Shown: piece after piece, positions 1-59,598 of the stretch
Numbering within the stretch: position 1 is the first letter of the stretch
Layout: the number at the start of each line of letters is the position of its first letter
Virus record (IMG/VR): IMGVR_UViG_3300037485_001979
Location: 62,001 to 126,000 of that record
Length of the DNA: 64,000 bases
Strand: one strand, 5' to 3'
From: a virus
Translations under genes and position numbers: made by a program
Notes under the pieces: generated by a model
The model's database searches: none
The model's input: the letters and a program-made list of their open reading frames with translations, nothing else
Told to the model about the DNA's origin: nothing

Positions 1-1442
1 CTATTGTTGGCATCAGTGATCGTAAACTTGGAGAAATCGAACACGTAGTTGTCGCGTCGAAGCGTGACATTGTTGTTCGCGTAATTTATAGTTAAACCAG
101 TTTCGACCACAGTAAGCGCGAAAGTCCATGTGAGCGCAGAGTCAATGGCAAGCCCGAAGACTTTGGAGCCCAGGGTAAGATTGCCGGTGCCCGCAGGGGA
201 GTCACCCCCGATGAAAAAGTAATGGTTGGTGTTCAGCCCACTCGCGGTGAGCCCACCTGCGAAGGTGTTCGCCCCGGTGACATGGAAACCGTTGTCATTC
301 TCCATGGTGTTCTTAGTGGTCTGGGACACACAGGACAGCCCGGCCGAATAGCCGATCTCACTGCCGATGGCCCCTGACAAGTTGACCCGGCACCCCGCAC
401 TGGTCGGCATGATTATGAATGTGCGTGTCCCGGCACCATTGAGCAGCGTAATCGCACCTGTGAAATTCACAGGGCTCTGCGCTCTCACATGGAGCTTTAC
501 AGTGCCCCCGACTTCGATGGCACCACTAAACGTGTAATTGGCACTCAAGCCCGCAGGCATCGAGATCGTAGAAGTCGTGTTGCCGATCCCCAGTGCCATG
601 TTGGTCGCAAAGGTTCGGGTAGCTCCTGCATCGACATACCACTCGAAGTAGGAGCCCTCGTAGAGGGAGATCTTTCCGGTTCCAAAGGAGTGAGTAGTCG
701 TGGCGCCAGAGTAACTCAAGGAGAGTTGAACCCCAGCGGCGACTACTGTATTCCGGTGAGCCGGGAATGTCGTCGAACTCGAGTGCGCGTAAGCCCCACC
801 ATTGACCAGGATGTCATGTGCACCGGTCACAGAACCCGTGGTGAGCAGGAATCCCGAGCTCGTGTTGTCGATCGTGAAATCCGTCTTCAGCAGAAGCGGA
901 GCCGAGATCGTAACAGTGTTGGATCCCGAGACCTGGTAGTACCGGGAGATCGAGAGGTTGCCACCATTCGATGCCGCCAGGGTCTTTTCACCACTGGAGT
1001 CACTGGTGATGGTCAATATCGTGGTGTCCCCGTAGAAGGTGAATACCTTGGTCCCCGAGTTCGTGAGATGTAACTTGGTGATGACTTTACCAGCGAAGTC
1101 GTAAGTAGCCGTGGATTCAATGACCCATCTACCCGTGGCATCGCTTACAGTCACCCCACTGGATAACGCGAGAGCGGTGACCCCAGCAGCCATAACTGCG
1201 AAATCAAAGGTGCCTAAGCTGAGGGTGCCCGTGTAACCCGTGAAGACCGCAGTGTTGACCGTGAGATTCGCACTCAGGGTACACGCATCATTGTTCCCCG
1301 CACCACTGCCATCAAAACGGATGTCATCGGCGGCAAGAGAGCCCGCGGCGGCCGCAGTGGTGCCCCCGATGTCCGTGGTGTAGTTCTGACGCTTATTCGC
1401 GTCGGAGTCGCCGACTTTGTTGTGCCAATAAAGGGTGGCCAT
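1..1442 (-). CDS. Beta-rich virion appendage-like protein, C-terminus off the window
   Basis: The frame is open from the ATG at 1442 to the left edge (480 codons seen), so the C-terminus is missing. After an N-terminus reading MATLYWHNKVGDSD the protein is a long run of short Thr/Ser/Gly/Asn-rich segments alternating with hydrophobic residues, such as SSGVTVSDATGRW and NGGAYAHSSSTTF. That pattern suits stacked beta-strands or a beta-helix, as in phage tail fibres and other appendages. No enzymatic motif was seen. A TGAGG-type SD lies about 9 nt upstream. The role is inferred from composition and from neighbouring virion-like genes; a cell-surface adhesin is an alternative. Confidence 0.6.
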   Translation of the reverse strand, partial: MATLYWHNKVGDSDANKRQNYTTDIGGTTAAAAGSLAADDIRFDGSGAGNNDACTLSANLTVNTAVFTGYTGTLSLGTFDFAVMAAGVTALALSSGVTVSDATGRWVIESTATYDFAGKVITKLHLTNSGTKVFTFYGDTTILTITSDSSGEKTLAASNGGNLSISRYYQVSGSNTVTISAPLLLKTDFTIDNTSSGFLLTTGSVTGAHDILVNGGAYAHSSSTTFPAHRNTVVAAGVQLSLSYSGATTTHSFGTGKISLYEGSYFEWYVDAGATRTFATNMALGIGNTTSTISMPAGLSANYTFSGAIEVGGTVKLHVRAQSPVNFTGAITLLNGAGTRTFIIMPTSAGCRVNLSGAIGSEIGYSAGLSCVSQTTKNTMENDNGFHVTGANTFAGGLTASGLNTNHYFFIGGDSPAGTGNLTLGSKVFGLAIDSALTWTFALTVVETGLTINYANNNVTLRRDNYVFDFSKFTITDANN

Positions 1443-1452
1443 TGTGCTGGCC

Positions 1453-2135: not shown

Positions 2136-2645
2136 CTACTTGGTCACCGCGGTGTCGACAAGGGTATCCATCAGGGTATCCCAATCCGGGTACTTGATAC
2201 GGCTGGGATCAATGCTGGGGCCCCCTGCAGTCAACGCAGTCGCGGGATCCAGGGAGGCCATGAGATCGAGGCGGACCCCACGGACGTACTCGGCAAGGAA
2301 GGCATACTGGTCGACGAGCTCGGCCTCGGCCTGGGCGAGCTCCCCGACGGCATACCAGGCGTGCCGGGCGTAACCCAGCCTGGCCTCTACGAGGAGGGCT
2401 CTGGCACTGCCCACATGCTTGCGCGCACAATCCAGGCATGTCGGCCGATTCGCGAGCTCGGCATTGATCTCGGTGAGGTCGACCCCACGCTCCTGGGCTT
2501 CCACGGCGTTCATGATAACCGTAGGGGGCACCCTTCGATCCTCGAGCCCTTCCATCATGGCGCGTACCCTTGGGAACGTATCCCTGGTGATGCCCTCTGG
2601 GGCCGCATCAGGCTTGACGTAGCGGGTGTCGAATTCATGTGGCAT
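2136..2645 (-). CDS. Phage hypothetical protein with CLDC-ARKH motif
   Basis: 169 residues. The central segment from about residue 67 contains PTCLDCARKHVGSARAL, then GYARHAWYAVGELAQAEAEL, and an acidic helical end. I recognise this Cys-x-x-Cys plus RKH plus helical arrangement as a pattern that recurs in uncharacterised phage proteins; its biochemical role is unknown. C70 and C73 alone give only half a typical zinc site, so metal binding is uncertain. It lies 10 nt downstream of the HAD/methyltransferase gene and is probably cotranscribed with it. Confidence 0.75.
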   Translation of the reverse strand: MPHEFDTRYVKPDAAPEGITRDTFPRVRAMMEGLEDRRVPPTVIMNAVEAQERGVDLTEINAELANRPTCLDCARKHVGSARALLVEARLGYARHAWYAVGELAQAEAELVDQYAFLAEYVRGVRLDLMASLDPATALTAGGPSIDPSRIKYPDWDTLMDTLVDTAVTK

Positions 2646-2655
2646 GGGTGGGCTC

Positions 2656-5133
2656 CTATTTGATCACGGTGAGATAATTGGTAAGCCTGTTGAACTCCAA
2701 CTCAGCAAGAATCTGGTTGTGATGAAGCGGCTTCAGAAGGGCTGCTAGGGCGTCTGAAGCCGGGTGCGTACGACTCACGAGAACCCCGAGCCCAAACACC
2801 GCTGGGATCAGATATAGATCAAAATCCCCTGACCACATCTTGATGAAGTCCTCGATGGCAGTCAGGACTCCATTGCGCTCGCCCCCCGCGCGTAACGCGA
2901 TGAAAAACTTTCCATTGCTCCGGAAACCAGATCCGGAGTGCACCATATCATTCAAGTCGACCCCAACGGAAGACGAGTTCGGTAGCAGGAACTCATCGGG
3001 GATACTGCTGGGGTCGTAATACTGGTCACGCCGCCCCCAGGGCCACCCTACATCGTAGATGACTGCTAAAAGCGGTTTCTTGTGGCGATCACAGCTGACC
3101 TTAATAGCAGTCAACTCGTTATAGACGGTAAACCAGTTGTGATCGCCATCCAGCGACCACATATCGATGGCACCCGCACGGGGGATGGCGTCCAAACTGC
3201 GCCCACAGAACTTAGACAGCCTTTCTCCCTCGTTGAATTGCTGTAGCGAGTTGGGGTCGGTGTCCACCATTAACACTTTGCCGATGGCGCGCCCCGCACA
3301 GTAGTCCACCCATCGGCGCGTCATCCCACCGCCCTCAACACCGATCTCACAAACCGTGTTCACGCCGGCGGTCTCCGCGATATCCAGCAAGAGATTTGAG
3401 AACGTGCTCAAGGAGTGAAGCAGCGGGGGGCGTGAGAATCCATGCTTGGGGTTCACGTTAAAAAGAGCGTTGGCGAGATCGTACGCCTTAGGGGCTTCTG
3501 TGATCCTGGTGGCCTGGGCGACCTCAGGGGGCACATCAACCTGGGGGTGTCGCCACATGATATCGATCTCGCGGTACGTGATCGTGGATGAATGCCGTGT
3601 AATCGTGGCGGCGACTCCACCGGGGGTAATCCCACTGAGATCTGGTTTATACAGGGGCCATAGGGCGACCGCGGCGTCCACAGCCTTATGAGCGACATCA
3701 ATGAGATCGGGATGATTCTCATGGGGAGCCCGAACAGGGGTGTCCCCTCTATACGTGATCAGAGAACCCACGACATCTTGATTGAAACTCTCGATACTCC
3801 ACTTGGCACGCGTGAGTTCAGGTGGCATCATGACTGGAATGCAGTTCACGTTCGTATTGATACCTGCGAGGGCAACCATGCTGAACTGATCCATGGGGCC
3901 TAACCCGAGGCGCGCCCATGCCCCCTTGAGAGATCTCCCACTCGCACGGATGTCGACCACTGTACGATCACGCAAGCACCCACGTAGATAGGCGGCATAG
4001 GCGCCATCTGCGCTGGCCTCCGCCAAAGCGTTTCGGGATATGTTGACGATCTCAGCCTTCTTGCCCGTGATGCACTCGTACAGCTTGGTGAGTAAACAAC
4101 AGTCCCGATAAATGAAAACTGGCTCGCGTTTCAAGGTCTCCTGCAGCCACTTCACGCCCATGCACAAGAACGGGATGTTCATGAGGACCTGCTCGGTCCA
4201 CAACTGAGATCTCACACAATCCTTGGAGATGTGATATGGGTTGCTCCGCACGACATGACGCAACCAGGGGTACAAGGAGGGTACGTGTTTCGCGTACTCC
4301 CAGATATTACTGTCCCTGAAGAATAGCGCCTCGAGCCCGGCGGCGCGTGGGTTCGCGACATCACCATGGACGGCATCCCCGTAATGGCACTGCGTGGTGC
4401 GCGCCAGGGGATCCCGCCACGTCGCCCCCGATGACTTGCCACCATAGGTAACCAGGATCTCGACACTCGCGGTGAGTCCGCACTTCACGAGAATCCGTCT
4501 GATGGCCTCAGCGGGGAGATACATGTCGGAGATGATGAGATCACCGTCTCGCACGAGACCCATGTTGGCCACGATTGGGTAAGCCTGGTTGACCTCCTCA
4601 TCGATCTCCCGTGCCTTGGCAGCTGCGGTCTCGGATTCCGACCACTTGAACACCCCTGCAAGGCTGGCATAGATGGCATCAAGGGTGGAGCGCGTCGCCC
4701 CCTCGGCGGCGCGCCGTGCAGCCGTGAATCCAGGGATCCCGGTGGCCTTCTCGATGATCTCGAACACGGCAACGGGGTGTACACAGCGCCGGCCCACCAA
4801 GGTGTCAAAGCAATCCCAGCTCTGACGCCCCGTGAGATGCTCGGGCTCATGAATGGGTAACAGGTAGTGATATAAATTGGTGGTGTGGTAGTGACCTAGG
4901 AAACAATCCCACTTCATATCCTGGATATTGAAAGTTGAGGTCACCCCACCGGTCTGGTTCAGGAGAACCAAGGAGCCCTCGCGCAACTCCCATGACGACT
5001 CATTGGCGTGCGCGTACTCCCCGATCTTACCCCCTGGCAATAATCGCATGGGGCCGTAGGGCTGATACACCCCGTCCTTCCAGACCCTGCCAAACATGTA
5101 ACGTCGCTGGAGAAACTCGGGGCTCGCTGCCAT
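2656..5133 (-). CDS. HAD-like hydrolase fused to a class I methyltransferase-like domain
   Basis: 825 residues. Residues 15-75 form a small Gly/Asn-rich domain (PGGKIGEYAHANESSWEL). Residues 105-285 carry a HAD-like set: motif I WDCFDTLV (D107, D110), IISDMYLP at 200-207 as motif II, GGKSSG near 231, and a motif IV-like YGDAVHGDV (D253, D258). From about residue 594 there is VCEIGVEGGGMTRRW, then LMVDTDPNS and WSLDGDHNW, which resembles the SAM site of sugar-type methyltransferases. Such fusions are known to me from polysaccharide-modification loci. The adjacent three-part glycosyltransferase supports glycan modification. SD GAGGTGAT precedes the ATG. The substrate is unknown. Confidence 0.75.
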   Translation of the reverse strand: MAASPEFLQRRYMFGRVWKDGVYQPYGPMRLLPGGKIGEYAHANESSWELREGSLVLLNQTGGVTSTFNIQDMKWDCFLGHYHTTNLYHYLLPIHEPEHLTGRQSWDCFDTLVGRRCVHPVAVFEIIEKATGIPGFTAARRAAEGATRSTLDAIYASLAGVFKWSESETAAAKAREIDEEVNQAYPIVANMGLVRDGDLIISDMYLPAEAIRRILVKCGLTASVEILVTYGGKSSGATWRDPLARTTQCHYGDAVHGDVANPRAAGLEALFFRDSNIWEYAKHVPSLYPWLRHVVRSNPYHISKDCVRSQLWTEQVLMNIPFLCMGVKWLQETLKREPVFIYRDCCLLTKLYECITGKKAEIVNISRNALAEASADGAYAAYLRGCLRDRTVVDIRASGRSLKGAWARLGLGPMDQFSMVALAGINTNVNCIPVMMPPELTRAKWSIESFNQDVVGSLITYRGDTPVRAPHENHPDLIDVAHKAVDAAVALWPLYKPDLSGITPGGVAATITRHSSTITYREIDIMWRHPQVDVPPEVAQATRITEAPKAYDLANALFNVNPKHGFSRPPLLHSLSTFSNLLLDIAETAGVNTVCEIGVEGGGMTRRWVDYCAGRAIGKVLMVDTDPNSLQQFNEGERLSKFCGRSLDAIPRAGAIDMWSLDGDHNWFTVYNELTAIKVSCDRHKKPLLAVIYDVGWPWGRRDQYYDPSSIPDEFLLPNSSSVGVDLNDMVHSGSGFRSNGKFFIALRAGGERNGVLTAIEDFIKMWSGDFDLYLIPAVFGLGVLVSRTHPASDALAALLKPLHHNQILAELEFNRLTNYLTVIK

Positions 5134-5139
5134 ATCAGA

Positions 5140-7584
5140 TCACCTCGTCATGAAAGTGTAGGGGCCGACACCATCCCGGAAGTACCAGGCCGCGCCGACT
5201 AATGACCATGTTGGTTCCCCTGCGTTCGGGACCCCACGCGCCTTCGCCACGGGGTCAAAGTACCACCAGGGGAGTTCAACGAAATCAGTGGCCCTGATGT
5301 TGTCTGAGAGCACGGAGTCAAGCGACTGCATGGGAACCTGATTCATCCTAACCCTGGCCTTGCAGGCATCCCCCCAGGCCTCAACAGTGACTGATGTGGC
5401 CGCAGCTCCGACTACCCTGGTCTGCACCTTGCCCTGGAGATCCTTGTAGCCAAAGGCCCCGGCACCAAGAGCACGGAGAGCGCTGGGGTCCCGGAGGACT
5501 TCGACATCAGCGTCGATGCAGATGCCACCGCTGGACGCGCTGAGTACCGCTGGCTTCGCGATCTCATTCAGGAGATCACGGGGGAGATCGGAGATCTTGG
5601 CCGCGAGGTCGTCTATGGCATCAGAGTCAAGACTATCGCCGGCGGCATAGAAACTAACAATGACAGCGTTGGTCTCAGGGGTGCTCTGCCACAAATTGAC
5701 ATCCCAGCCCAGGGCCGACAGCTTCTTGATGTTGTTGGCCACAGTGGCGGCAACCTCGCCCTCGATGGCGATGCCAATGCTCATGATGTGGATAACCTTG
5801 GGGATCGTGGGCTCATCAGCAGTCGGGGGATCCAGGGGATCCAAGCCGAATCCTTCGAGGTCGGTGAAGACGCCGGCCTGTTTGAGGAACCTGAGGTACA
5901 GGCGTTCCTGTGGGGTATAGGCGCCCGCAGGGGGCTCCCCCCAGTACCGCATGTGCTTGGATTCAATGTGAGTGTCGATACCAGCGGTTACAATAGTCTC
6001 CGCCCAGGTCTGTGCCCATCGAATCGCTTCGGCACCCGTGGAGAGCCCCCATGTCTCATGAATCAAGGGTGACTGTAGGAGGCGCTGGGCATACGCGGGA
6101 TCCCAGACATCTGGCTTGGTCGCACTGATGTGCCGCAGTCTCGCGAGCACCTCGGCATACCGGGCACCCTGCACGGGATGGTCAAGCACTCGAGGCCGGA
6201 TTACAACTACACGCCAGGGCCTCAGTAGGGCCAGCCCGATCTCGAGGTCGTCGAGTGCACGGGGATGCAAGGGGTTCAACACCCAGTAATCCGTGCGGGT
6301 ACCCACGGGGTAACCGTCAAGACGCGGGAAGTTGACCCGTATAACGATGTCATCACTTTCGATGCCATCGACGCTTTCATCCCCGAGCACCTTGGCAGTG
6401 GACCCATTGCCCACGATGACGGCCCTGCGGCTCCCATCGAGCTTATCGTTGTGCACCTTGATGGGCTTCGTGGACCCCGGGATATTCCAGGCACCATTGC
6501 GCGGTGGCATCCCCGCAGCGGCGAGAGCCTTGTCCTCGAGTTCGGCGAGGCGTTCAGTGGGCTTCCCGGGAGGTGTAGCCACGATCTCAGCAGTGTAGGC
6601 TGCCCATGCCGCCCTGACCCCGTCAACACTGAGTCCAGCCGAGTACCCCCAGGCGAGATCACGCAACGAATCCGTTACTATAGGGGGTGCGATTCGAGGC
6701 CTCGCTGAATCCACGGGATCCTTGAAGTGGCCGTCGTAGAGACCAGCCGAGGACTCCCTGGGGTTCACCTTGGAGTCATTGGTGGCCTGAGCCCTGGCAT
6801 CAATGAAGGACTTGTAGGGGAAAGCAGTGAGCCCAGAGATCTGGGTGGTATTGAATACCTCGAATCCATGGTGGAGAAACTCGACCTGGAGCTGGGTGAA
6901 CAATCCATTGAGGTACTCGAAGAGAGTATTGTTCTTAGCAGCGACTGCGGCGTCGACGACCTGATCATGGTTGTAGGCCCTCTTGGGATCCATCTTGAAG
7001 TCGGCACCAACGAGGTAGACCCGCTTGAAACCCAGGATGTAGAGGATGCGGAGTGCAGCGACCATGGTGCTGCGACCACCTCTTACGGTATCACTACCCT
7101 CCTGCCCCCAGTTGATGGTGTCCTCGTTCAGCCAGGTCTTGGCATCGAACTTGTCATTGCGCCGGATGAACCAGGTGTTCGGGCAATCCCGTGGGGTCTT
7201 CGCGAGGTGCTCACGAAGTGGCATGTCCTGGTAGGCCAGGGGATAGAACTTCGTGATCCCGGGATCCAGCCAGATCGAGTTCAGGAAGCGATGGGGTTCA
7301 TCGAGGCCACACCAGAGCTGGGGACGCCAGCCCTGGGCGGCATTGTTGACCGCCATCGTGACGACCCCAGGAGTCGCTGAGAGCGCTTTGAGGTCGATGT
7401 CCCCTGCGCTGGGGCCCCCGCAGACCAGGAACGCCGTGGCGCCCTGGTAAGCGTGCCCCAGCCACGCGTTCTCCATCTGTGATGTAAAGAACACGGCGGG
7501 CTGGGAGCGCAGCACCCTCCCAGCCCGGGCCTCAGTTGAAGTCGTGATCTTGAAGACATCGTGACGCCCGGGGTGGGTGGTCAT
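5140..7584 (-). CDS. Three-part glycosyltransferase-like protein (DUF115-like, GT29-like, GT32-like)
   Basis: 814 residues. The N-terminal part has FLVCGGPSAGDIDL at about 52-65 and VYLVGADFKMD near 187, as in the Rossmann-like DUF115/MptE-type domain. The middle part, about 383-435, has AVIVGNGSTAKVLG, then DDIVIRVNFP and VGTRTDYW, resembling the sialyl motif L of GT29 sialyltransferases. The C-terminal part starts IPKVIHIMSIG (about 591) and contains ICIDADVEVL (about 685), a DxD motif as in GT32. Three sugar-transfer modules on one chain is unusual. It is 7 nt from the HAD/methyltransferase gene and has SD AAGGAG. Donor and acceptor sugars cannot be read from sequence. Confidence 0.75.
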   Translation of the reverse strand: MTTHPGRHDVFKITTSTEARAGRVLRSQPAVFFTSQMENAWLGHAYQGATAFLVCGGPSAGDIDLKALSATPGVVTMAVNNAAQGWRPQLWCGLDEPHRFLNSIWLDPGITKFYPLAYQDMPLREHLAKTPRDCPNTWFIRRNDKFDAKTWLNEDTINWGQEGSDTVRGGRSTMVAALRILYILGFKRVYLVGADFKMDPKRAYNHDQVVDAAVAAKNNTLFEYLNGLFTQLQVEFLHHGFEVFNTTQISGLTAFPYKSFIDARAQATNDSKVNPRESSAGLYDGHFKDPVDSARPRIAPPIVTDSLRDLAWGYSAGLSVDGVRAAWAAYTAEIVATPPGKPTERLAELEDKALAAAGMPPRNGAWNIPGSTKPIKVHNDKLDGSRRAVIVGNGSTAKVLGDESVDGIESDDIVIRVNFPRLDGYPVGTRTDYWVLNPLHPRALDDLEIGLALLRPWRVVVIRPRVLDHPVQGARYAEVLARLRHISATKPDVWDPAYAQRLLQSPLIHETWGLSTGAEAIRWAQTWAETIVTAGIDTHIESKHMRYWGEPPAGAYTPQERLYLRFLKQAGVFTDLEGFGLDPLDPPTADEPTIPKVIHIMSIGIAIEGEVAATVANNIKKLSALGWDVNLWQSTPETNAVIVSFYAAGDSLDSDAIDDLAAKISDLPRDLLNEIAKPAVLSASSGGICIDADVEVLRDPSALRALGAGAFGYKDLQGKVQTRVVGAAATSVTVEAWGDACKARVRMNQVPMQSLDSVLSDNIRATDFVELPWWYFDPVAKARGVPNAGEPTWSLVGAAWYFRDGVGPYTFMTR

Positions 7585-7585
7585 A

Positions 7586-7894
7586 TCAACTCCTTCGAGT
7601 CTTTTTCTTCTTGGCGTGCTCGCGGCGTGCGCGTGCCTTGATAACGCTGCTACGCTCTCTCAGGATCTTGAGCTGGCGGGCCTTCTCGGCCTCACGTGCC
7701 TCCAGGATTCGCTTGCGCCTGAGCGCACGGGCTTTCTCCAAGTGGTCATCACGGCTACCGGGGTGATCCCCGGTGGCCTTCTCATAGGCCGCACGTTCCT
7801 CGGGGGTCAGGATTCCCGGGGCTGCCTTGGGTTTCTCGGTCTCCTCGAGAACTGATGCCGTCGCGGCATCGATGACAGCGCTGAGGTCCTTCAT
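7586..7894 (-). CDS. Small basic coiled-coil protein
   Basis: 102 residues, mostly one long charged helix (EKARALRRKRILEAREAEKA) ending in a poly-lysine tail (AKKKKTRRS). The ATG overlaps the stop of the upstream gene as ATGA, with an AAGGTGA SD. The strong basic tail suggests nucleic-acid or acidic-protein binding, for example a scaffold or assembly helper. No family is recognised. Confidence 0.7.
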   Translation of the reverse strand: MKDLSAVIDAATASVLEETEKPKAAPGILTPEERAAYEKATGDHPGSRDDHLEKARALRRKRILEAREAEKARQLKILRERSSVIKARARREHAKKKKTRRS

Positions 7895-8385
7895 GACTTC
7901 ACCTTCTTAGCCTTCGCCTTCTTCGACTTCGCAGTCTCGACACTGGAGACTTTCTTTTTCTTACTGGCTGCGGGCTGCTGAGATTTCACTGTCTTCAACT
8001 TTTCCAGGACCTCCTTGGTAGCCATTGTCAGAGTTTTGACGATATCCTGGGTACCCTTGAATGTCGCCACCGCGGTACTCTTCAGGGCATCGATGTGGGC
8101 CTGGGCAACCATGTTGTCCCCTTTGCGCGTGACCACCCATTGTATCCCCGCGATGGTGAGGCGCTGGGCTTCAGTCTCCACAGAACTGGCATTACCAGGG
8201 ATCAGGCTCATGAGGCGTGACTGGGCCTTCAAGTAGAGCTCGCCCACGCCGCGTGGGGTCCTGATGGGGTTGATGGCTATGACTTTAGCGGTCTGGACGA
8301 CGACGTTTAACATCGCGTCGATCTCCTTCATACGCTCGTAATGAGCCTGGCTGGCCGGGCTGGGGCATGCGGATTCCGATGACAT
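7891..8385 (-). CDS. Hypothetical protein with Lys-rich C-terminal tail
   Basis: 164 residues from the ATG at 8385, chosen because an ideal SD (AGAGGAG) sits 6 nt upstream; the frame extends further but without an SD. The body is helical and ends in repeated Lys/Ala/Ser segments (KKKKVSSVETAKSKKAKAKK), like an H1-type tail. It is the first gene after one copy of the recurring palindrome at 8419-8437 and is coupled to the following basic protein by ATGA. A DNA- or virion-packing role is possible but not shown. Confidence 0.75.
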   Translation of the reverse strand: MSSESACPSPASQAHYERMKEIDAMLNVVVQTAKVIAINPIRTPRGVGELYLKAQSRLMSLIPGNASSVETEAQRLTIAGIQWVVTRKGDNMVAQAHIDALKSTAVATFKGTQDIVKTLTMATKEVLEKLKTVKSQQPAASKKKKVSSVETAKSKKAKAKKVKS

Positions 8386-8418
8386 ATAGTCTCCTCTGGG
8401 CGTGAGCCCATGTGGGTG

Positions 8419-8437
8419 GGTTGACTGACAGTAAACC
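8419..8437. promoter_or_regulatory. Recurring 15-bp near-palindrome, copy 1 (inverted orientation)
   Basis: GGTTGACTGACAGTAAACC on the plus strand; the arms match as GGTTkACTG/CAGTmAACC. It lies 33 nt upstream of the start at 8385. This copy points the opposite way from the other copies relative to its downstream gene, which argues for an operator-like dyad over a strictly directional promoter. Confidence 0.5.
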
Positions 8438-8453
8438 ATGACTCCGTGCGGTG

Positions 8454-8735
8454 TCAAGTCGGTGGGGTGTCCGGGATATCCTTGATGGCCTGACGGGTGC
8501 GCGCGATTCCACCGGTAGCCGCGATAAACAAGTTCTGGATGTAATCCGTGCTCGCGCGTTCCTTGAACTCCTGTGCAGTTATTCCAGGGGTCCCCCCGAG
8601 CTGGGCAAGCGAGTTCCGCAAAGTCAGGGAGACCTGGTGGAGCTCAGCTGCACAGTTGATCACATTCTGAATCTCCGGTGGCAACTTGGTTGCCTGTGCC
8701 GGCTTCGAGGAGTTCAGCATTATCGTGTCCATCAT
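8454..8735 (-). CDS. Small helical hypothetical protein
   Basis: 93 residues; AAGGGA SD 6 nt before the ATG. Predominantly amphipathic helix with one Cys (INCAAELHQVS), and no family recognised. It directly follows the two-domain glycosyltransferase gene (8 nt) and precedes a palindrome-bearing gap. Its stop codon lies within a second TTGAC sequence, TTGACACCG. Confidence 0.65.
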   Translation of the reverse strand: MMDTIMLNSSKPAQATKLPPEIQNVINCAAELHQVSLTLRNSLAQLGGTPGITAQEFKERASTDYIQNLFIAATGGIARTRQAIKDIPDTPPT

Positions 8736-8743
8736 ATAGTCCC

Positions 8744-10489
8744 TTAATCAATTGGTTTGAGCCCGAAGCGTTGGAGAACATCCCCAATGCTCGATGTACG
8801 CTGAACTCTAAGTGCCCAGTACCCGGCGAGAAGACGCTCGCGGTGGCGCCAGGGGTGGACCTGCAGGGGGCACTTCCCCAAGGCGACCACGGGCACCCCA
8901 ATCATGGCGGCCTCGATCAACGAGGTCGAATTGATTCCGACGACGACCTCGCTGACACGGGCGGCGTCATAGAAGTCCTTGACGACCTCGCGGCCCTCAA
9001 TGCTGGCCCGTGCTGACCTCCAGGGCCGCTGGGACCCCGACTTGGGATGCGGGCGCACCACGATGTCATGACTCGGGTACATCGCGGCGACGTGTTCAAC
9101 AAACTCGCCCATGTTGCGGTAGGCACAGTGATACAAGATCTGGGAGTCATTCTCGATCTGGAGGGGGACGAGGACTCGCGATTTCTTGGGTTCCAGGGGA
9201 TACTTGGCGCGGAGTTCAGAGACCCCCTCGCGGTATGCCTTGAGGTCGGCGTCGGTAACCCAGCCCAGGGGGCGCATGAGCATCGAATCCCCAGCGAAGC
9301 CATCGAGGTCGACGAGGAATGTTGAAGCCTGCGGGGCCACCCCCCACTCGAAGAAGGCATAGGGGATCTTCATGGCCTCACAGAGCGCCTTGGCGTTGCG
9401 ACCATTGTGCTGGGCGCCATTCCAGATCACGACGAAGGCGGCCCTCTTGAGATCCCCGGCGACCTTGAAGAACTCGGTGTCGATGCCAATGAAGGCGTAG
9501 GGGCGCCCCAGGGACTCCGCCCAGCGCTTCACGAAGCCCTGGCACTCGCTGCCATTCCAGCCAATGTAAACAATGGCGCCGTCATCGGCACGGCGACCCG
9601 GGGCCTCCTCGGGCTCACATTCGCCCTGGGGGACCTCGTGGAGGCTCTCCTTGCCCGGCCAGGGATCAATGGGGGCCAAGACGGCATCGGAGGCCCTGAC
9701 CTCGTAACCCATGGTGGCCCTGGTGTACACCGAGGTGAGCTCGCGTTCCAAGCGATCCGCCCACTTCGAGGGGGTCACAATCATGGTGGCACGGGTGACC
9801 CGGGCATGAAGCACGGCGACCCCGGCGTGGTGGAGGTAGAACCTCTGCGGCGACATCCAGGGACTCAGGGGTTCCTCGACGAACCCTGTGGGATTCCTGC
9901 CGAGCTCACGGTTGAGATGGTTGACCTGAAAGGGGAACTCGGCGATGACGCGCTGGGCAAAAATGACGTCATGGTTACGCATGACACCCTGGGGATACGT
10001 GATGCCCGCGTCTACAATGGCGGCGCGGCGGAAGAACGCGGCGTTATACCTCAGCGGGAACTTGCCCTCCAGGGACTGCCGGGTCACCGAATAATCGCCC
10101 CAGACCACGGAGTTGCGGACCACGGCTTCACTCGCCTTGAGCTCATGGGTCCACAACACGATGTCAGGAGACTTCTCGGCTTCCTGTTCGAGGACTGCGA
10201 TACGGACTTCTTCGGAGAAATCCCTGTCGCCGTGGACCAAGATGAAGTCAGCTCTTGAGCGTGCGATGAGGAAGTTGAGGGCGGCACCGGGGCCAATGCG
10301 GTACGCACTCGTGAAGACCTCAATCCTGGAGTCAATCCCGCGTTCCTCCTCGATGAGCTCAGCGGTCTCCGCTGTGGCGGCATCACTGAACACTAGGACG
10401 CGGTTGACCCCGCGAATCTTGAGGATGTTCTGGAGGGTGGCCTCGATGTGGGAGTTGTCATGGGTGACTAAGACGACGTCAGTGGTCAT
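8744..10489 (-). CDS. Two-domain glycosyltransferase: GT-A-like plus capsule-transferase-like
   Basis: 581 residues. Residues 1-200 look like a GT-A (GT2-type) fold: MTTDVVLVTHDNSHIEATL, then HGDRDFS at 86-92 as the metal-binding acidic motif. Residues about 330-560 resemble KpsC/KpsS/LipB-type capsule transferases: VLVPLQIENDSQIL, VRPHPK, and VGINSTSLIEAAMIGVP. In those families the enzymes transfer Kdo or related sugars onto glycan chains. SD GGAGG precedes the start, which is ATGA-coupled to the upstream gene. With the two genes at 2656-7584 it makes a glycan-building set inside a virion gene block. Confidence 0.75.
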   Translation of the reverse strand: MTTDVVLVTHDNSHIEATLQNILKIRGVNRVLVFSDAATAETAELIEEERGIDSRIEVFTSAYRIGPGAALNFLIARSRADFILVHGDRDFSEEVRIAVLEQEAEKSPDIVLWTHELKASEAVVRNSVVWGDYSVTRQSLEGKFPLRYNAAFFRRAAIVDAGITYPQGVMRNHDVIFAQRVIAEFPFQVNHLNRELGRNPTGFVEEPLSPWMSPQRFYLHHAGVAVLHARVTRATMIVTPSKWADRLERELTSVYTRATMGYEVRASDAVLAPIDPWPGKESLHEVPQGECEPEEAPGRRADDGAIVYIGWNGSECQGFVKRWAESLGRPYAFIGIDTEFFKVAGDLKRAAFVVIWNGAQHNGRNAKALCEAMKIPYAFFEWGVAPQASTFLVDLDGFAGDSMLMRPLGWVTDADLKAYREGVSELRAKYPLEPKKSRVLVPLQIENDSQILYHCAYRNMGEFVEHVAAMYPSHDIVVRPHPKSGSQRPWRSARASIEGREVVKDFYDAARVSEVVVGINSTSLIEAAMIGVPVVALGKCPLQVHPWRHRERLLAGYWALRVQRTSSIGDVLQRFGLKPID

Positions 10490-25022: not shown

Positions 25023-25512
25023 CTCTGGGCTCCTTGGGCTCCGGGGGTTCCGCCCCGATCTTGGTGTACCAATCACAGCGCATCGCGGCGACAGCGGCGA
25101 GGACATCCCTGGCGCGTTGGAGTCTGGACTCCGCGGATGCCACTTCAGTCTTCGCACGACAACACAGGTAAGCCCAGGCGTCATCCCAGGTATCGAAGTA
25201 GCGGTACTTGGTCTCATCGCAGTGGAAGCGCCTCTGGACCCCGTAATGAGGGAATCGTCGGTGGCCACCCCCGTAGAAGTTCCTGACCCCCTGGAAGTAA
25301 TCCCTCCCATCAACCCTGACCTTCTCGGTGTACGGGATTTTGAGGATGGCGAGCTCACTGATATCAATGGGGCCCGACTTCTCGACCTGAAAGGCGAAGA
25401 GAACACGGGGCTCCTGGGGCTTGGTAAAGTCGACAACCCCCTCTTTAGTGCGCGGGAACTCCACGCGACCATTCTTCAGGGCCTCCTTGACGTTTATCTT
25501 TTCTGTGCTCAT
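24994..25512 (-). CDS. Hypothetical protein
   Basis: 172 residues from the ATG at 25512, which is ATGA-coupled to the upstream AYKxNK gene. It has a beta-type N-terminus (RVEFPRTKEGVVDFTKP, RVLFAFQVEKSGPIDIS), a central GGGHRRFPHYGVQRRFHCDE with several His and one Cys, then a helical Ala/Arg-rich part and a Pro/Glu tail. No motif allows an assignment. It overlaps the next gene by 29 nt. Confidence 0.65.
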   Translation of the reverse strand: MSTEKINVKEALKNGRVEFPRTKEGVVDFTKPQEPRVLFAFQVEKSGPIDISELAILKIPYTEKVRVDGRDYFQGVRNFYGGGHRRFPHYGVQRRFHCDETKYRYFDTWDDAWAYLCCRAKTEVASAESRLQRARDVLAAVAAMRCDWYTKIGAEPPEPKEPRDGETPDIPH

Positions 25513-25814
25513 CCCGGGGTCCCCCCATCTAAGCGCTCGAGGACCTGACTGCGATGCCATCCCGAGGGCATGTTAGCGGCGAGCCATTTGAGGTCTTCCA
25601 GAGTCATCTCATCCAGGGAGTACACGATGACTCTGAAGGGCTCATGATTGTAGATCTTGGCCATGAGGGCCTTGAACTCCGGAAGTGTCCGGAGATCCTC
25701 GAGCTGGGGGTTCCTGAAGACTGTCCGGCTCACATAGCTCAGGAAGTAGTCGGTGTCGTACTGAACCTTATTGGCCTTGTAGGCCTCGATCAGGGGGTGG
25801 TAGACGATGGGCAT
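25509..25814 (-). CDS. AYKxNK-family protein, copy 1
   Basis: 101 residues, SD AAGGAGTCCC. Starts MPIVYHPLIEAYKANKVQYD, then LRTLPEFKALMAKIYNHEPF, IVYSLDEMTLEDLKWLAANM and a short C-terminus. This order (HPxxxAYKxNKxxYDxD, PEFxxLM, PFxxI, LxDLxWL) is shared by four consecutive genes and matches no family I know. It is all-helical by composition, without Cys or catalytic motifs. Probably a small adaptor or inhibitor-type protein. Confidence 0.75.
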   Translation of the reverse strand: MPIVYHPLIEAYKANKVQYDTDYFLSYVSRTVFRNPQLEDLRTLPEFKALMAKIYNHEPFRVIVYSLDEMTLEDLKWLAANMPSGWHRSQVLERLDGGTPG

Positions 25815-26332
25815 GTCTGGGACTCCTTTTTATCTGGCAGTATTACCTCGAGGAACTCACTGGGGTTCTGTCTGGCGTGCTCCAATGCCACCATCTCCTC
25901 AAGTGCTGGCTTCAGGGCGATCTTCTCGAACATGGCATCGAAATCATTTTCAACCCCAGCCTTGATCTCATCGAGGACAGGCTTGGTGCCCTGTGGGCAG
26001 GAACCCATGTTACCCCTGGCCAGCGCAAGTGCGGTGTCGATGCCTGGTCTGTGGTCGAAGTGATCCATGACCTTACTGTAATGCCACCCGATTGGCATCT
26101 CAACCATCAACCACTGGAGATCCTCCAGTGACATCTCCCCAAGGCTCTCGATGATGGCGTTGAATGGGTCCGGGTTCTTCACGGTAGCCATGAGACCCGT
26201 GTACCAGGGGTTCTCGCGAAGCCCGATGAGATGGGGGTTCCCCTGAACGCTCCAGTTCAGGGCCCCCAGGAAATAGTCTTGATCGTATTGTGCTTTATTG
26301 GCCTTGTAGGCCTCGACTAAATGGTGACCCAT
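25790..26332 (-). CDS. AYKxNK-family protein, copy 2, with extension
   Basis: 180 residues, SD GGAGGACC. The N-terminal 90 residues match the family (HHLVEAYKANKAQYDQDYFL, WYTGLMATVKNPDPFNAI, GEMSLEDLQWLMVEMPIGWH). A further 80 residues without similarity to copy 1 follow (VLDEIKAGVENDFDAMFEKI). Overlaps copy 1 by 25 nt. Copies 1 and 2 are the most alike, both with MPxGWHxS after the WL motif. Confidence 0.75.
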   Translation of the reverse strand: MGHHLVEAYKANKAQYDQDYFLGALNWSVQGNPHLIGLRENPWYTGLMATVKNPDPFNAIIESLGEMSLEDLQWLMVEMPIGWHYSKVMDHFDHRPGIDTALALARGNMGSCPQGTKPVLDEIKAGVENDFDAMFEKIALKPALEEMVALEHARQNPSEFLEVILPDKKESQTCPSSTTP

Positions 26333-55694: not shown

Positions 55695-56343
55695 GGGATT
55701 CCTCGTCACGTAACACGGGTTCTAGGAGATCATGGATCAGGGCGTCCAACTGGGAGCTCACATAACCATGGACCACTCTGACGTAGCCATGGTTGATCTT
55801 CTTGGCCCCGAAGTGGTCGACGCCATATAGGTGGACGTCAAACTCGCGAGTATCATGGAAGTCCTGGTCACGTAACCAGGACTCCAAGCTATCGAGGTCC
55901 ACTGGTGGTATCAGTGCCCTGCGGAGGAACTCGTCAAGTGGGATATTAGAACGTGTGTCGTGCGAAGGTGTCCCGATGAGAACCCCATATCGCTTATGGT
56001 GTTCTGCGATGTTCTCCATGACGATATCGGCGACGTGCTCCCATCCCTTCTTGGTATCCCGTGGGCGGTGGTCGTCGTAGACCTGCCAGGCCTCGAGACG
56101 GACATTGGGGACCCCAAACGTGGGGGTAATCGCGAAGACTCGTGTGGTCGTCTTCTTGTTCGAGATTTGAGAAGTCACGATGTCATGCCGCAGAAATGCG
56201 GGCAAGTCATCAATGCACACGGGTGGGAACAATGCCGCTGCCTTAATGCGATCTGGATTCATGTCCTTTATGGGCAGCTTGTCAAAGGAATCAATGACCA
56301 CGGCATATTTCGTCAGGGGTTCTCGTGAGGTGTCATCACACAT
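55687..56343 (-). CDS. Hypothetical protein with internal duplication
   Basis: 218 residues from the ATG at 56343 (SD GAGGAGGCC). Two similar segments occur: AALFPPVCIDDLPAFLRHD (about 35-55), followed by RVFAITPTFGVPN, and RALIPPVDLDSLESWLRDQD (about 140-160), followed by FDVHLYGVDHFGAK. The pattern A-L-(F/I)-PPV-x2-D-x-L-x2-(F/W)LR repeats with a beta-type follow-up. Function unknown. Confidence 0.65.
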   Translation of the reverse strand: MCDDTSREPLTKYAVVIDSFDKLPIKDMNPDRIKAAALFPPVCIDDLPAFLRHDIVTSQISNKKTTTRVFAITPTFGVPNVRLEAWQVYDDHRPRDTKKGWEHVADIVMENIAEHHKRYGVLIGTPSHDTRSNIPLDEFLRRALIPPVDLDSLESWLRDQDFHDTREFDVHLYGVDHFGAKKINHGYVRVVHGYVSSQLDALIHDLLEPVLRDEESHD

Positions 56344-56345
56344 GG

Positions 56346-56816
56346 TTAGGCCTCCTCGGTGCAGGGTGAACACGCGGTAACCTCGCCTTGGTCGACGCAG
56401 ACATAGTAGGTGCCGTGGGTCTTATTGTGGAGATAGAACTCGTTGCTGACCCCGGTCTCGGGACCAGTCACGGTAGCCCACTTCGTCTTGTTCGGGGCTC
56501 CAGACGCCGAGCGAACCGCGGCGAGAGCCTTGTCGTAGTCCGATGACCCCTCGGGGGCCTTATCAAGGATCTCACGGGTGACTTCATGCCACTCCGAGTT
56601 CACGAATGCGAAGCACACCGCGTACTCACAAGATGGACACTTGATGTTGGCCTTGTGTTGGCCTCGCTTTCCAGCGGTGCCCAGTGAACCCACCCCAATG
56701 GGTACCATGCCCCAAATCAGGGCGCCATAGGGTATCTTCGTGGTATGAATCTTCGGAAGCGTGCCGGGCTCAGCCCCCAGAGGTGGACGGCGGGGATCTG
56801 TATGCTTTTCAGTCAT
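56346..56816 (-). CDS. Zinc-ribbon-like protein
   Basis: 156 residues from the ATG at 56816 (SD GAGG). KANIKCPSCEYAVCFAFVNS and a C-terminal YYVCVDQGEVTACSPCTEEA give two Cys pairs, one at each end of the core. YYVCVDQG resembles the closing beta-strand of other ribbon proteins. Third member of a local zinc-protein cluster. Confidence 0.6.
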   Translation of the reverse strand: MTEKHTDPRRPPLGAEPGTLPKIHTTKIPYGALIWGMVPIGVGSLGTAGKRGQHKANIKCPSCEYAVCFAFVNSEWHEVTREILDKAPEGSSDYDKALAAVRSASGAPNKTKWATVTGPETGVSNEFYLHNKTHGTYYVCVDQGEVTACSPCTEEA

Positions 56817-57147
56817 CTTCGACCTCTTCCTCGTCGGCGAGATCATCGCAGACGGCAGCACTGGTTTGTTCTTCGATGTCATCCTGGCAGGACGAGCACA
56901 ACTTCTGCGCCTTCTCCTCGGGGATGAACTCGCACCCGCAGGACTGGCACTCTGTCTTCACGTCCTTCCAAGCACAGGGGCAGCCGCGCTCATGACAGAC
57001 CACCCCGTTGATACTGGCGAGCACACAGCTATCGCAGCTCAGGCTGGCAGCGTATTTATCCTTCATGGCGATTTGGGCACCTCGGATGGTGTCGAACTCC
57101 TGCTTGATCAGGCTACCATCCTCGTCGGTGTACGACGCTTTAATCAT
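56809..57147 (-). CDS. Multi-Cys zinc-binding protein
   Basis: 112 residues from the ATG at 57147 (SD CGGAG). FDTIRGAQIAMKDKYA, then LSCDSCVLASINGVVCHERG, CPCAW, ECQSCGCEF and CSSCQDD; nine Cys and a His in about 55 residues, ending in an acidic tail. The HERGCP segment resembles conserved phage small proteins. Probably binds two zinc ions. Confidence 0.7.
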   Translation of the reverse strand: MIKASYTDEDGSLIKQEFDTIRGAQIAMKDKYAASLSCDSCVLASINGVVCHERGCPCAWKDVKTECQSCGCEFIPEEKAQKLCSSCQDDIEEQTSAAVCDDLADEEEVEDD

Positions 57148-57865
57148 GTGGACTCCGTTTCTCCTTGCAATTATAGCATACAAAACTACGGGTATTCATG
57201 TATTCCATGAAACCATAACCCATGCGTATCTCCAGGGGGTTAACGAACTCCTGTTTGCATTTCTTACATGTTATTGGCTTCCCGTTATACGCGTCGAGAG
57301 CCCATCTCACTGAACACACTGGCTGCATGCAGTCATAACAAACAAATAATCCGTCTTCGTAGTACCCGCGTTGGGTAGTGTTGGCACGTGTGTCCACTCC
57401 CCCGCAAACCCTGCACACCGAAGACAACGGTGTATCGCCTAGCCTAACGCTGTCGGAATTACTAACCCGCATCTCGAGCTTCAAGCCCCCTGCCTCAACC
57501 CAGTACGATAATATCGAACGGGTAATCCGCATAATTTCAACTTTCTTGGGCACAAACTTCCCGTAATACTGATCCCTCCAGCGTGAATCTAAGATAAGCA
57601 CCCCACCCTCACCAACTATCGCAGGTAGAGTGGTTGGCTGTGGGCTGGCTGCGTATAGCTGGGTACCTGGCAATGCAGTGACAACCCACTTTGAAGTTTT
57701 TGGCGTCTTATATGAGTTACGCGCTCGAACTGGCGCCCCAATGGCTATCTTAGCCTCTCGGTTAGTATTGCGCATCTCCTCGGCATGCCTATTCATTGGC
57801 TTGCTCGATGCGGCACCAAGGGTCGTGTATTTTCCTTTAAGTAAACAAAAAGATGAGGAGTTCAT
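57140..57865 (-). CDS. Zinc-binding protein in AT-richer DNA
   Basis: 241 residues from the ATG at 57865 (SD AAGGGG). A basic N-terminal half (RARNSYKTPKTSKWVVTALP) is followed by SSVCRVCGGVDTRAN, FVCYDCMQPVC, ITCKKCKQEF and FVCYNCKEKR, four CxxC pairs fit for two zinc sites. Lower GC than the flanking genes. It may bind nucleic acid. First in transcription of a three-gene zinc cluster that follows the helicase. Confidence 0.65.
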   Translation of the reverse strand: MNSSSFCLLKGKYTTLGAASSKPMNRHAEEMRNTNREAKIAIGAPVRARNSYKTPKTSKWVVTALPGTQLYAASPQPTTLPAIVGEGGVLILDSRWRDQYYGKFVPKKVEIMRITRSILSYWVEAGGLKLEMRVSNSDSVRLGDTPLSSVCRVCGGVDTRANTTQRGYYEDGLFVCYDCMQPVCSVRWALDAYNGKPITCKKCKQEFVNPLEIRMGYGFMEYMNTRSFVCYNCKEKRSPHD

Positions 57866-57891
57866 ATAGGCTTCCCCTTTCTTTATTAGTG

Positions 57892-59598
57892 TCAGCTCAC
57901 GAATGGTTTGACCTCTGGTGCACAGAAAACGGCTTCTGGCACCCATGCGGACAACTTGAGACCCGCGAGGGTCCGAGTCCGCGATAACGCGACGTAGGCG
58001 AGGCCATGCCGGGAATCCCCGGGCATATAGGTAATCGACTTCATGTCGACCCAGGCCTTGTCCACGGTGGCCCCCTGGGCCTTGTGGATCGTCATCGCCC
58101 AGCCCAGGGACAACGGGAACCCCCTGAGGCTGAACTTGGGTTGTCCCAGGGGATCCTTGACCTCCTGGGTCACCTCGGTGACCTCAACGGTGGCACCGGT
58201 ACGATCCATGGTGACCAGGATGGACACCGGGACCGAGGCAGGCTTCGAGCCAACCTCAAAAGGATTTGGCTCCGGGGTGTCATTAATCCTGGTGCCCCCG
58301 GCGACCCTGGCCTCCACGATGAGACCGACGTCCCCGTTGACCCAGCGTTGCTCGCCTTCCTCGGAGTAGTCATTCATGGTGAAGACTACCCGGGCGCCAA
58401 CACGGAATACATCGTTGTGGGCGAGACGACCACTAGAGATCTCCCGGGCGATATCGGATTCCTTGAGAGCATACTTCTCCTTGATGTGGGTAGGCCGCGT
58501 ATCTAAGTATTTGGTATGCAATCTGAACAGGCGGTGGCCATCGGGGTTATGGGTGACCCGCTGGAGGTTGTAGTTGTCCGCGGTGGCATTGGTGGCATAG
58601 AGCCGAATAAAGGCGTCATCAGATGGGGGTGTATCGACGACACATGCCTTGAAGACTTCCTCCACGCTGGAGTCAACTTCCCCTCTGCGAACCTTGTTGA
58701 GAGCTCCGAGGAATACTACCTCACTCTGGCGATGACACTCCGTGAGCTTGATGACGTCGGCTTGGGTGATCAGCTTGGTCGACATCGCCCAGGTGTCCTT
58801 GACCGGCGCGGCTTGCCCCCAGTCGCCAACGATGACCAGAGACTTCCCATACTTCTGGGCCGTCGCGTAGAGATAGTTGGCCATGCAGGCCCCGATCATG
58901 GAGCCCTCGTCGATGATGATGACCTTGGGGGTCCCCCGCATCAGCTTCTCGAGCCGGATGGCATCCCGGGTCTTATTGAGCTCGCGATCATATGAGAACA
59001 TGGCATCCACGGTGCAGCCACCAACATTGATGGCGGCTTTACCCGTGGTCGCGCAGATCGCAGACGGGATCCGCTTGAGGACCTCGCGGATCACCGTGGA
59101 CTTCCCGGTACCCGCGTACCCCGTGAGGATGGTTACCGTGGCCCGTGTTGACGTCAGCTTGTTGAGTGCGGACTTCTGATCCGGACTCCAGGGGATCTCG
59201 GGCTCCTCGGGTTCATCGTCGTCGTCGAAGGCATCCCCTGCTCTGTTGTCACCCATCGATGGTGATGGCTTCGGCGCGGGGTCACAAAACGGGGAATCTC
59301 CTGGGGACAACGCTGCCGCCACGACCCGCTGAAAGGCGGCCTCTGGGGTAAGCCGTGGAGTAATCGGTGCCTGCAGTGGGTTTAGCGTCAGGGGATCGGC
59401 ATGACTGCCCCCGAGTTCCACCACGGCGTCCTCGGTATCCGCGTTGACTTCACTTTCAATAATCGCGGTGATGGCCTCCTGGGACAGGAAGACCTGGTTG
59501 AACTGCCTGACCACCTTGAGGCGTCTGGCATCATCATGGAGCCCGGGGAGGTCGAGTAACACTCCTTTCCCGGGGACTCTTGTGATTCTTGTGGGCAT
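57892..59598 (-). CDS. Pif1/RecD-like SF1 DNA helicase
   Basis: 568 residues from the ATG at 59598 (SD AGGAAA). The first 135 residues are an unassigned N-terminal domain ending in an acidic linker (DAFDDDDEPEEPE). The helicase core has TGYAGTGKSTVI (Walker A, 159-170), KVIIIDEGSMIGA (Walker B), VGDWGQAAPV, LTECHRQS, SLGWAMTIHKAQGATVD and AYVALSRTRTLAGL. This is the SF1B pattern of Pif1, RecD2 and Dda, 5'-3' helicases that act at forks and in recombination. Likely a replication helicase of the phage. Confidence 0.9.
   Translation of the reverse strand: MPTRITRVPGKGVLLDLPGLHDDARRLKVVRQFNQVFLSQEAITAIIESEVNADTEDAVVELGGSHADPLTLNPLQAPITPRLTPEAAFQRVVAAALSPGDSPFCDPAPKPSPSMGDNRAGDAFDDDDEPEEPEIPWSPDQKSALNKLTSTRATVTILTGYAGTGKSTVIREVLKRIPSAICATTGKAAINVGGCTVDAMFSYDRELNKTRDAIRLEKLMRGTPKVIIIDEGSMIGACMANYLYATAQKYGKSLVIVGDWGQAAPVKDTWAMSTKLITQADVIKLTECHRQSEVVFLGALNKVRRGEVDSSVEEVFKACVVDTPPSDDAFIRLYATNATADNYNLQRVTHNPDGHRLFRLHTKYLDTRPTHIKEKYALKESDIAREISSGRLAHNDVFRVGARVVFTMNDYSEEGEQRWVNGDVGLIVEARVAGGTRINDTPEPNPFEVGSKPASVPVSILVTMDRTGATVEVTEVTQEVKDPLGQPKFSLRGFPLSLGWAMTIHKAQGATVDKAWVDMKSITYMPGDSRHGLAYVALSRTRTLAGLKLSAWVPEAVFCAPEVKPFVS

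Follow-up and report, generated by a model that had tools for sequence, protein, structure and literature searches.

Here we describe three neighbouring genes for multidomain glycan enzymes that may together constitute a phage-owned, cytoplasmic O-glycosylation system of the flagellin type, directed at virion fibres and provided with a slot in which the capping enzyme is exchanged (we put the probability of this reading at about one half). The enzyme families are known; the combination is new. The genes lie in a stretch of 64,000 bases (hereafter the window) that comprises bases 62001-126000 of a 171,559-base (~171.6 kb) IMG/VR virus record, G000. Virtually all genes of window and record are on the minus strand. 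The record also carries genes for a DNA polymerase of family A and a ribonucleotide reductase, for a multisubunit-type RNA polymerase fused into one protein, and for a protein resembling head maturation proteases; by this gene content its source, which is uncultured, is a large tailed phage.

The three genes, P825, P814 and P581, are long open reading frames (ORFs) without interruption. Two sister phages, both IMG/VR contigs (G001, 216 kb; G002, 73 kb), encode P814 at 78-80% and P581 at 88-90% amino acid identity (full length where covered), and the two halves of P825 have bacterial homologues; the three ORFs are thus not products of chance, and all are real, intact and conserved. In this the earlier note on this DNA, which placed a cluster of three multidomain glycan enzymes here, was right; the cluster lies by fibre-type genes. 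It also described them as close together: they are neighbours, but not strictly contiguous, since between P814 and P581 lie small ORFs, two or three in number (102, 188 and about 93 amino acids). Searches of 50,697 phage records at the DNA and protein levels turned up nothing closely related to P825, P814 or P581; for P825 there were only partial matches, from phage Rctr41k and two gut contigs, and a pattern search found no P825 homologue in any other viral contig.

Comparison with the sisters shows that the three genes do not share the same fate. The first 20 kb of the window align for the most part at about 77-82% nucleotide identity, with a clean break at P825, and at each edge of the break lies a short junction (Table 1). 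Between the junctions G001 carries a gene for a 499-amino-acid GT25 plus radical-SAM/SPASM protein (radical-SAM by motifs and a SPASM match), and G002 one for a 639-amino-acid protein with GT29-like, GT32 and methyltransferase-like domains (the last by motifs). The contents of the three phages are not homologous, while both sides are 78-90% identical; G+C content of the three slot genes is 0.570, 0.566 and 0.506, compared to 0.588-0.633 for the other genes measured. The position of P825 is therefore a one-gene exchange slot next to P814 and P581, which the sisters keep. The three fusions first noticed are all present, but the design had been understated: the two core fusions are constant, and sister phages exchange the third. 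Modules have moved between core and slot, as the slot protein of G002 and the C-terminal half of P814 are paralogues (28% identity, E about 4e-10). The sister contigs (which may be incomplete) hold no P825 homologue elsewhere, and the literature searched yielded no description of such an exchange slot.

P825 had been read as a fusion of a HAD domain and a methyltransferase. Both are there, but a predicted module between them had been missed: a ribofuranosyltransferase dependent on phosphoribosyl pyrophosphate (PRPP). A phmmer search gave a weak first match (E=0.0026) between the middle of P825 and Bcs3, the capsule polymerase of Haemophilus influenzae b, and tblastn led to a homologue in phage Rctr41k, Rctr41k_21. 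A profile of these two sequences matched Bcs3 residues 377-713 at E=7e-14 and PDB 7shg ("Ribofuranosyl transferase") at E=3e-4; an eight-sequence profile, with six sphingomonad-type proteins added, matched both PDB entries, at E=3e-28 and 5e-26, the stronger score coming mainly from the bacterial members. Bcs3 377-713 comprises the CrpP phosphatase together with the first part of CriT, the PRPP-dependent ribofuranosyltransferase (PMC10299916), and the profile alignment to this segment places a phosphoribosyltransferase-like domain directly C-terminal of the HAD domain of P825. Equivalents of the Bcs3 PRPP-binding residues R679-D680 and S707-R708 (PMC10299916) are invariant (RD and SR) in 8/8 aligned sequences. 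So are the HAD residues D, S and D...D; the motif III Lys is present in P825. In the region of Bcs3 E818, P825 has VVDIRASGRS and the sphingomonad proteins VDLGYNGS; MAFFT leaves these unaligned and the Bcs3 match stops before E818, but the two segments are probably equivalents of each other and of the E818 loop. On all sequence features tested but that one, whose equivalent is only probable, P825 belongs to the CrpP-CriT family. A unit of the same kind in Campylobacter, that of Cj1432, transfers ribose-5-phosphate from PRPP and then removes the phosphate (PMC12096443). The methyltransferase (Methyltransf_24) scores 24.2 bits, slightly under the Pfam cut-off of 26.3, and the small N-terminal domain is found again (43% identity) as part of a sulfotransferase-like protein that is encoded, among many glycan genes, in a gut contig. 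P825 is probably an enzyme that adds ribose and a methyl group.

A scan of bacterial genomes returned 36 loci, the best in Sphingomonadaceae. Here the unit is an ~800-amino-acid HAD-ribofuranosyltransferase gene followed by a gene for an ~270-amino-acid methyltransferase 42-44% identical to P825 571-824; for the HAD part identity to bacterial homologues is about 24-30%, and for the ribofuranosyltransferase part only ~25%. In a sample of 151 genomes of the family the methyltransferase occurs in 10, and in all ten the first gene lies directly upstream on the same strand. P825 thus looks like the fusion of a real bacterial operon. Eight of the ten loci are within flagellar clusters (FlhA, FliA, FliM, FliF, FlgF/G, FlgK, MotB, FlbD and FliG, with identities confirmed by Pfam for representative genes), and three loci adjoin flagellin. 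The eight share descent and some synteny and so do not count as eight separate events; four or more different flagellar arrangements can be distinguished. Phage Rctr41k has the methyltransferase, a sulfotransferase-like gene and the HAD-ribofuranosyltransferase as separate neighbours just upstream of the terminase and capsid genes, and another viral contig has a methyltransferase of the same family beside a GT2-like gene, next to terminase-like and portal-like genes (assigned by eye).

The conserved core consists of P814 and P581. For P814 the description as a DUF115/GT29/GT32-like triple protein holds: PHROG_4603 (alpha-2,3-sialyltransferase) matches at E=9e-7, Pfam matches to GT29 and MptE/DUF115 are present at scores under their cut-offs, and the GT32-like part, for which Pfam gave no direct match, retains a DAD motif and has a homologue in the G002 slot protein, whose Gly_transf_sug domain scores 38.1 bits (cut-off 23). 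PF01973, the central domain of the Maf proteins, which resembles the sialyltransferase Cst-II (PMC11339370), scores 17.7 bits in P814; since the cut-off is 34.6, we say only that P814 resembles Maf and do not file it as one. P581 also proved to be what had been proposed, a fusion of a GT-A and a capsule-transferase-like domain, with both Pfam scores above the cut-offs (GT2, 28.8 bits vs 23.3; Capsule_synth, 36.7 vs 20).

Table 1. Features of the glycan enzyme region (window coordinates; domain functions are predictions from sequence)
Feature	Position	Strand	Remarks
P825, slot enzyme, 825 amino acids	2656..5133	-	small N-terminal beta-type domain, CrpP-like HAD phosphatase, CriT-like PRPP ribofuranosyltransferase and Methyltransf_24
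P825 small N-terminal domain, residues 26-98	4840..5058	-	
P825 HAD phosphatase, residues ~105-275	4309..4821	-	nucleophile D in DxFDTL; S/D in SDMYL; K; GD....D motif
P825 CriT-like PRPP-dependent ribofuranosyltransferase, residues ~276-480	3694..4308	-	YRD = Bcs3 S678-R679-D680 region; SR = Bcs3 S707-R708; VVDIRASGRS loop
P825 class I S-adenosylmethionine methyltransferase (Methyltransf_24), residues 571-825	2656..3423	-	~43% identity to sphingomonad single-domain methyltransferase
Left slot junction CACTTTCATGACGAGGT	5142..5160	-	end of P814 gene; identical in the three phages
Right slot junction TAGGAGCCCACCCATG	2643..2658	-	slot-gene stop with ribosome-binding site and start of next gene; identical in the three phages
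P814, conserved core, 814 amino acids	5140..7584	-	three glycosyltransferase-like domains
P814 DUF115/MptE-like (Maf_flag10; Cst-type sialyltransferase-like), residues ~45-265	6790..7452	-	PHROG_4603, E=9e-7
P814 GT29-like, residues ~380-545	5950..6447	-	VGNG..A, R-N..G.R.D.W..N and LSTGAEAI motifs
P814 GT32-like, residues ~590-780	5245..5817	-	DAD motif; homologous to Gly_transf_sug of G002 slot protein
P581, conserved core, 581 amino acids	8744..10489	-	GT2 (GT-A), residues 5-112; Capsule_synth/KpsC-like (GT-B), residues 432-539
Conserved 169-amino-acid gene beyond slot	2136..2645	-	CxxC..KH domain, fused to GT9-like domain in distant phage L013
Upstream part of repetitive, Ser/Thr-rich adhesin-like protein homologue	1..1443	-	1122 amino acids in sister G001

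If these enzymes modify the virion an acceptor is required, and the best candidate is a collagen-like protein with Ser repeats. At the left end of the G000 contig there is a collagen-like protein with about 400 amino acids of Gly-X-Y; it ends in (SG)n and in PSGSSHL repeated 16 times, and its frame is still open where the contig stops. The complete homologue of G001 is an open frame of 1326 amino acids containing tracts of (GSS)n and (GSSHHS)n; the version in G002, with (SG)n and (SSQPSG)n, runs off its contig: in all three phages the Ser-rich character is retained while the repeat sequence changes. This is association and not proof. Collagen-like glycoproteins are known from Bacillus and mimivirus (PMC8968730). 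In a distantly related phage (G003, locus L013), which has one flanking-gene domain in common with the record, poly-Ser proteins flank genes for a fused GT9-like protein, a methyltransferase, a sulfotransferase-like protein and a GT8-like protein (the last two assigned by eye). Separately we noted that virion-type proteins of this phage (L013:42-2354 and 8905-9861) contain very long poly-serine and SSSSSLGLT tracts, and that G001 encodes (L048:6551-10867) a 1439-amino-acid collagen-like protein whose C-terminal part consists of many RCC1-like repeats (TVVATGxNxxGQxNVSxWTG), an unusual head for a phage fibre.

The activities, their order, the donor, the acceptor, the glycan on the virion and its purpose would, as we infer them, be these. 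P814 and P581 would initiate a short glycan on Ser/Thr of virion fibre proteins and elongate it. P825 would then transfer a terminal ribofuranose from PRPP, its HAD domain would strip the 5-phosphate of the ribofuranose, and its methyltransferase would O-methylate the product, leaving an O-methylated ribofuranose finish. With a different slot enzyme in each sister phage the glycan would be finished differently, perhaps against recognition of the virion by host or environment. More tentatively still, the slot may be a dedicated one-gene site for a glycan cap, in which a conserved core is combined with an exchanged terminal enzyme so that fibre sugars are switchable, and the ribose-methyl cap may have been captured from a bacterial flagellin-glycosylation operon.

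Several points weigh against a fibre glycosylation system. The glycan of the virion is predicted from the genes of an uncultured phage, and the P814 domain calls are individually weak. AlphaFold models were unusable (mean pLDDT 30 for P814 with 3 aligned sequences, and 35 for P825 as a single sequence), and the C-terminal half of P814 had no meaningful PDB match. The collagen-like gene is about 60 kb distant, at the contig end. The setting had been described as next to structural-type genes: fibre-type genes are indeed in the region (a recognised tail-fibre-type gene is about 12-15 kb away in the record), but the immediate neighbours (flanking genes of 455, 281 and 243 amino acids) gave no convincing Pfam or PHROG family match. 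A P814 profile found no relative among the 151 sphingomonad-family genomes, a search that had no positive control and shows little; because no such relative was detected, the complete flagellin-type system has not been seen in one bacterial genome. Finally, loci for surface polysaccharides have KpsC-like and GT2 domains just as commonly, and the product of Bcs3 is a capsule and not a glycoprotein (PMC10299916).

These last points lead to the main rival, namely, that the enzymes remodel the surface polysaccharide of the host (lipopolysaccharide (LPS) or capsule), to exclude superinfection or to keep progeny from re-binding to debris, with the slot tracking host sugars. Capsule_synth/KpsC-like, GT2 and GT25 (LPS) domains are all typical of surface polysaccharide loci, the Bcs3 and 7shg relatives work on surface glycans (PMC10299916), and the nearby fibre and adhesin genes make co-evolution with host range plausible. 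We nonetheless consider this unlikely: the close bacterial relatives of P825 are in flagellar clusters and not in LPS or capsule loci, the same genome offers Ser-rich fibre proteins as a ready acceptor, and no transmembrane Gtr-type serotype-conversion enzymes were noticed (no search was aimed at them). The earlier note had left the site of the glycan between virion and host surface; the flagellar relatives, the Ser-rich fibre proteins and the absence of PF00303 from the record (see below) make the virion the likelier of the two.

It is less probable again that the core acts on fibres and the slot is a passenger (moron) site unrelated to P814 and P581, carrying genes for host glycans or flagella. 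Lower G+C content and lack of mutual homology are as in cargo sites, and with the closest bacterial relatives of P825 being flagellar, the flagellin of the infected host is a possible target. Yet all three slot genes encode glycan enzymes of matching kind, one of them paralogous to P814; moreover, the slot gene reads in the same direction as the conserved genes on either side, lies tightly between them and shares translation signals with them.

We know of no DNA glycosyltransferases in the KpsC, GT2 or GT25 families, which counts against the remaining reading, that the target is modified phage DNA, on which the enzymes would build a glycan or lengthen one (DNA hypermodification). That reading – for which it can be said that phage glycosyltransferases glycosylate DNA in other systems (work cited in PMC12619734) – is very improbable, given that PF00303 (thymidylate synthase/dCMP-hydroxymethylase) is absent from the 171.6-kb record (positive controls worked; the record may be a fragment), that the genes lie among fibre genes and not in the replication block, and that the relatives of P825 are flagellar.

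Further features of these phages deserve mention. Within the fibre-gene block of G000 (45.7-47.8 kb; L008:3744-5834) is a gene for a 696-amino-acid Nudix plus HAD-IIIA fusion, 92-94% identical in the sisters, which may act on sugar nucleotides or phosphosugars for the glycan system; a role in heptose precursor synthesis was considered after a PHROG match to phosphoheptose isomerase, and the NCBIfam models above cut-off are generic (HAD-IIIA/HAD-IA). Among the fibre genes is also a spermine/spermidine-synthase-like protein (L008:1940-2803; 21.7 bits, just under the cut-off of 22.9). Two small tandem paralogous genes, beginning MPIVYHPLIEAYKANK and MGHHLVEAYKANK, are found at 25509-26332 of the window. 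The RNA polymerase of G000 (28.7-33.2 kb; L007:8699-13246) is a single protein of 1515 amino acids with beta-type (Rpb2_6, Rpb2_3) and beta-prime-type (Rpb1_1, Rpb1_2) domains. Ribonucleotide reductase has 1160 amino acids in G000 (55768-59250; L008:13768-17250), 1140 in G001 (L012:15316-18738) and 850 in G002 (L003:8370-10922); given these lengths and a LAGLIDADG_3 domain among the proteins of the record, an intein in the reductase is likely.

Glycosylation of phage virions is known from few cases. Were the fibre glycosylation system to prove true, a conserved core with a cap-enzyme slot would be the bacteriophage counterpart of surface-antigen variation, and the virions of sister phages would differ, with a pentose plus methyl in one and other terminal groups in the others. 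P825 would in addition be a multidomain reagent for PRPP-based glycan synthesis. A by-product of the work is the apparently undescribed pair of HAD-ribofuranosyltransferase and Methyltransf_24 in sphingomonad flagellar clusters (loci L102, L103, L105-L110), for the function of which the literature searched held no description.

With the CrpP-CriT part of Bcs3 (PMC10299916), the middle and C-terminal domains of Cj1432 (PMC12096443) and PDB 7shg, P825 shares the order of a HAD phosphatase followed by a PRPP-dependent ribofuranosyltransferase, and the HAD catalytic and the RD and SR PRPP-binding residues are kept. It differs in having no CroT or GT4 polymerase domain, in place of which there is a methyltransferase and a small N-terminal domain, and in being encoded by a phage, beside fibre genes. 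The sphingomonad pair has the same module order, as two genes in bacteria and one fused gene in the phage. The N-terminal domain of P814 resembles PF01973 of the Maf flagellin glycosyltransferases (PMC11339370, PMC4065374) and sialyltransferase families, and the cytoplasmic O-glycosylation of Ser/Thr by Maf is the chemistry proposed here; unlike Maf, P814 does not reach the PF01973 cut-off and carries GT29- and GT32-like domains in the same chain. In mycobacteriophages (Freeman 2023, as summarised in PMC12619734) phage glycosyltransferases decorate virion proteins, as we propose here; there the targets are capsid and tail tube, whereas here the enzymes are large fusions, the candidate acceptor is different and there is an exchange slot. 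The chlorovirus PBCV-1 offers a likeness of function: A064R and A111/114R (PMC9614988, PMC7826918) are likewise virus-encoded, with several glycosyltransferase domains per protein. PBCV-1 is an algal virus, its glycosyltransferase folds are others, and its glycan is N-linked and biochemically proven; A064R, a GT-GT-methyltransferase fusion, nevertheless builds the glycan of the major capsid protein and caps it with its terminal sugar O-methyltransferase, which resembles the capping proposed for P825.

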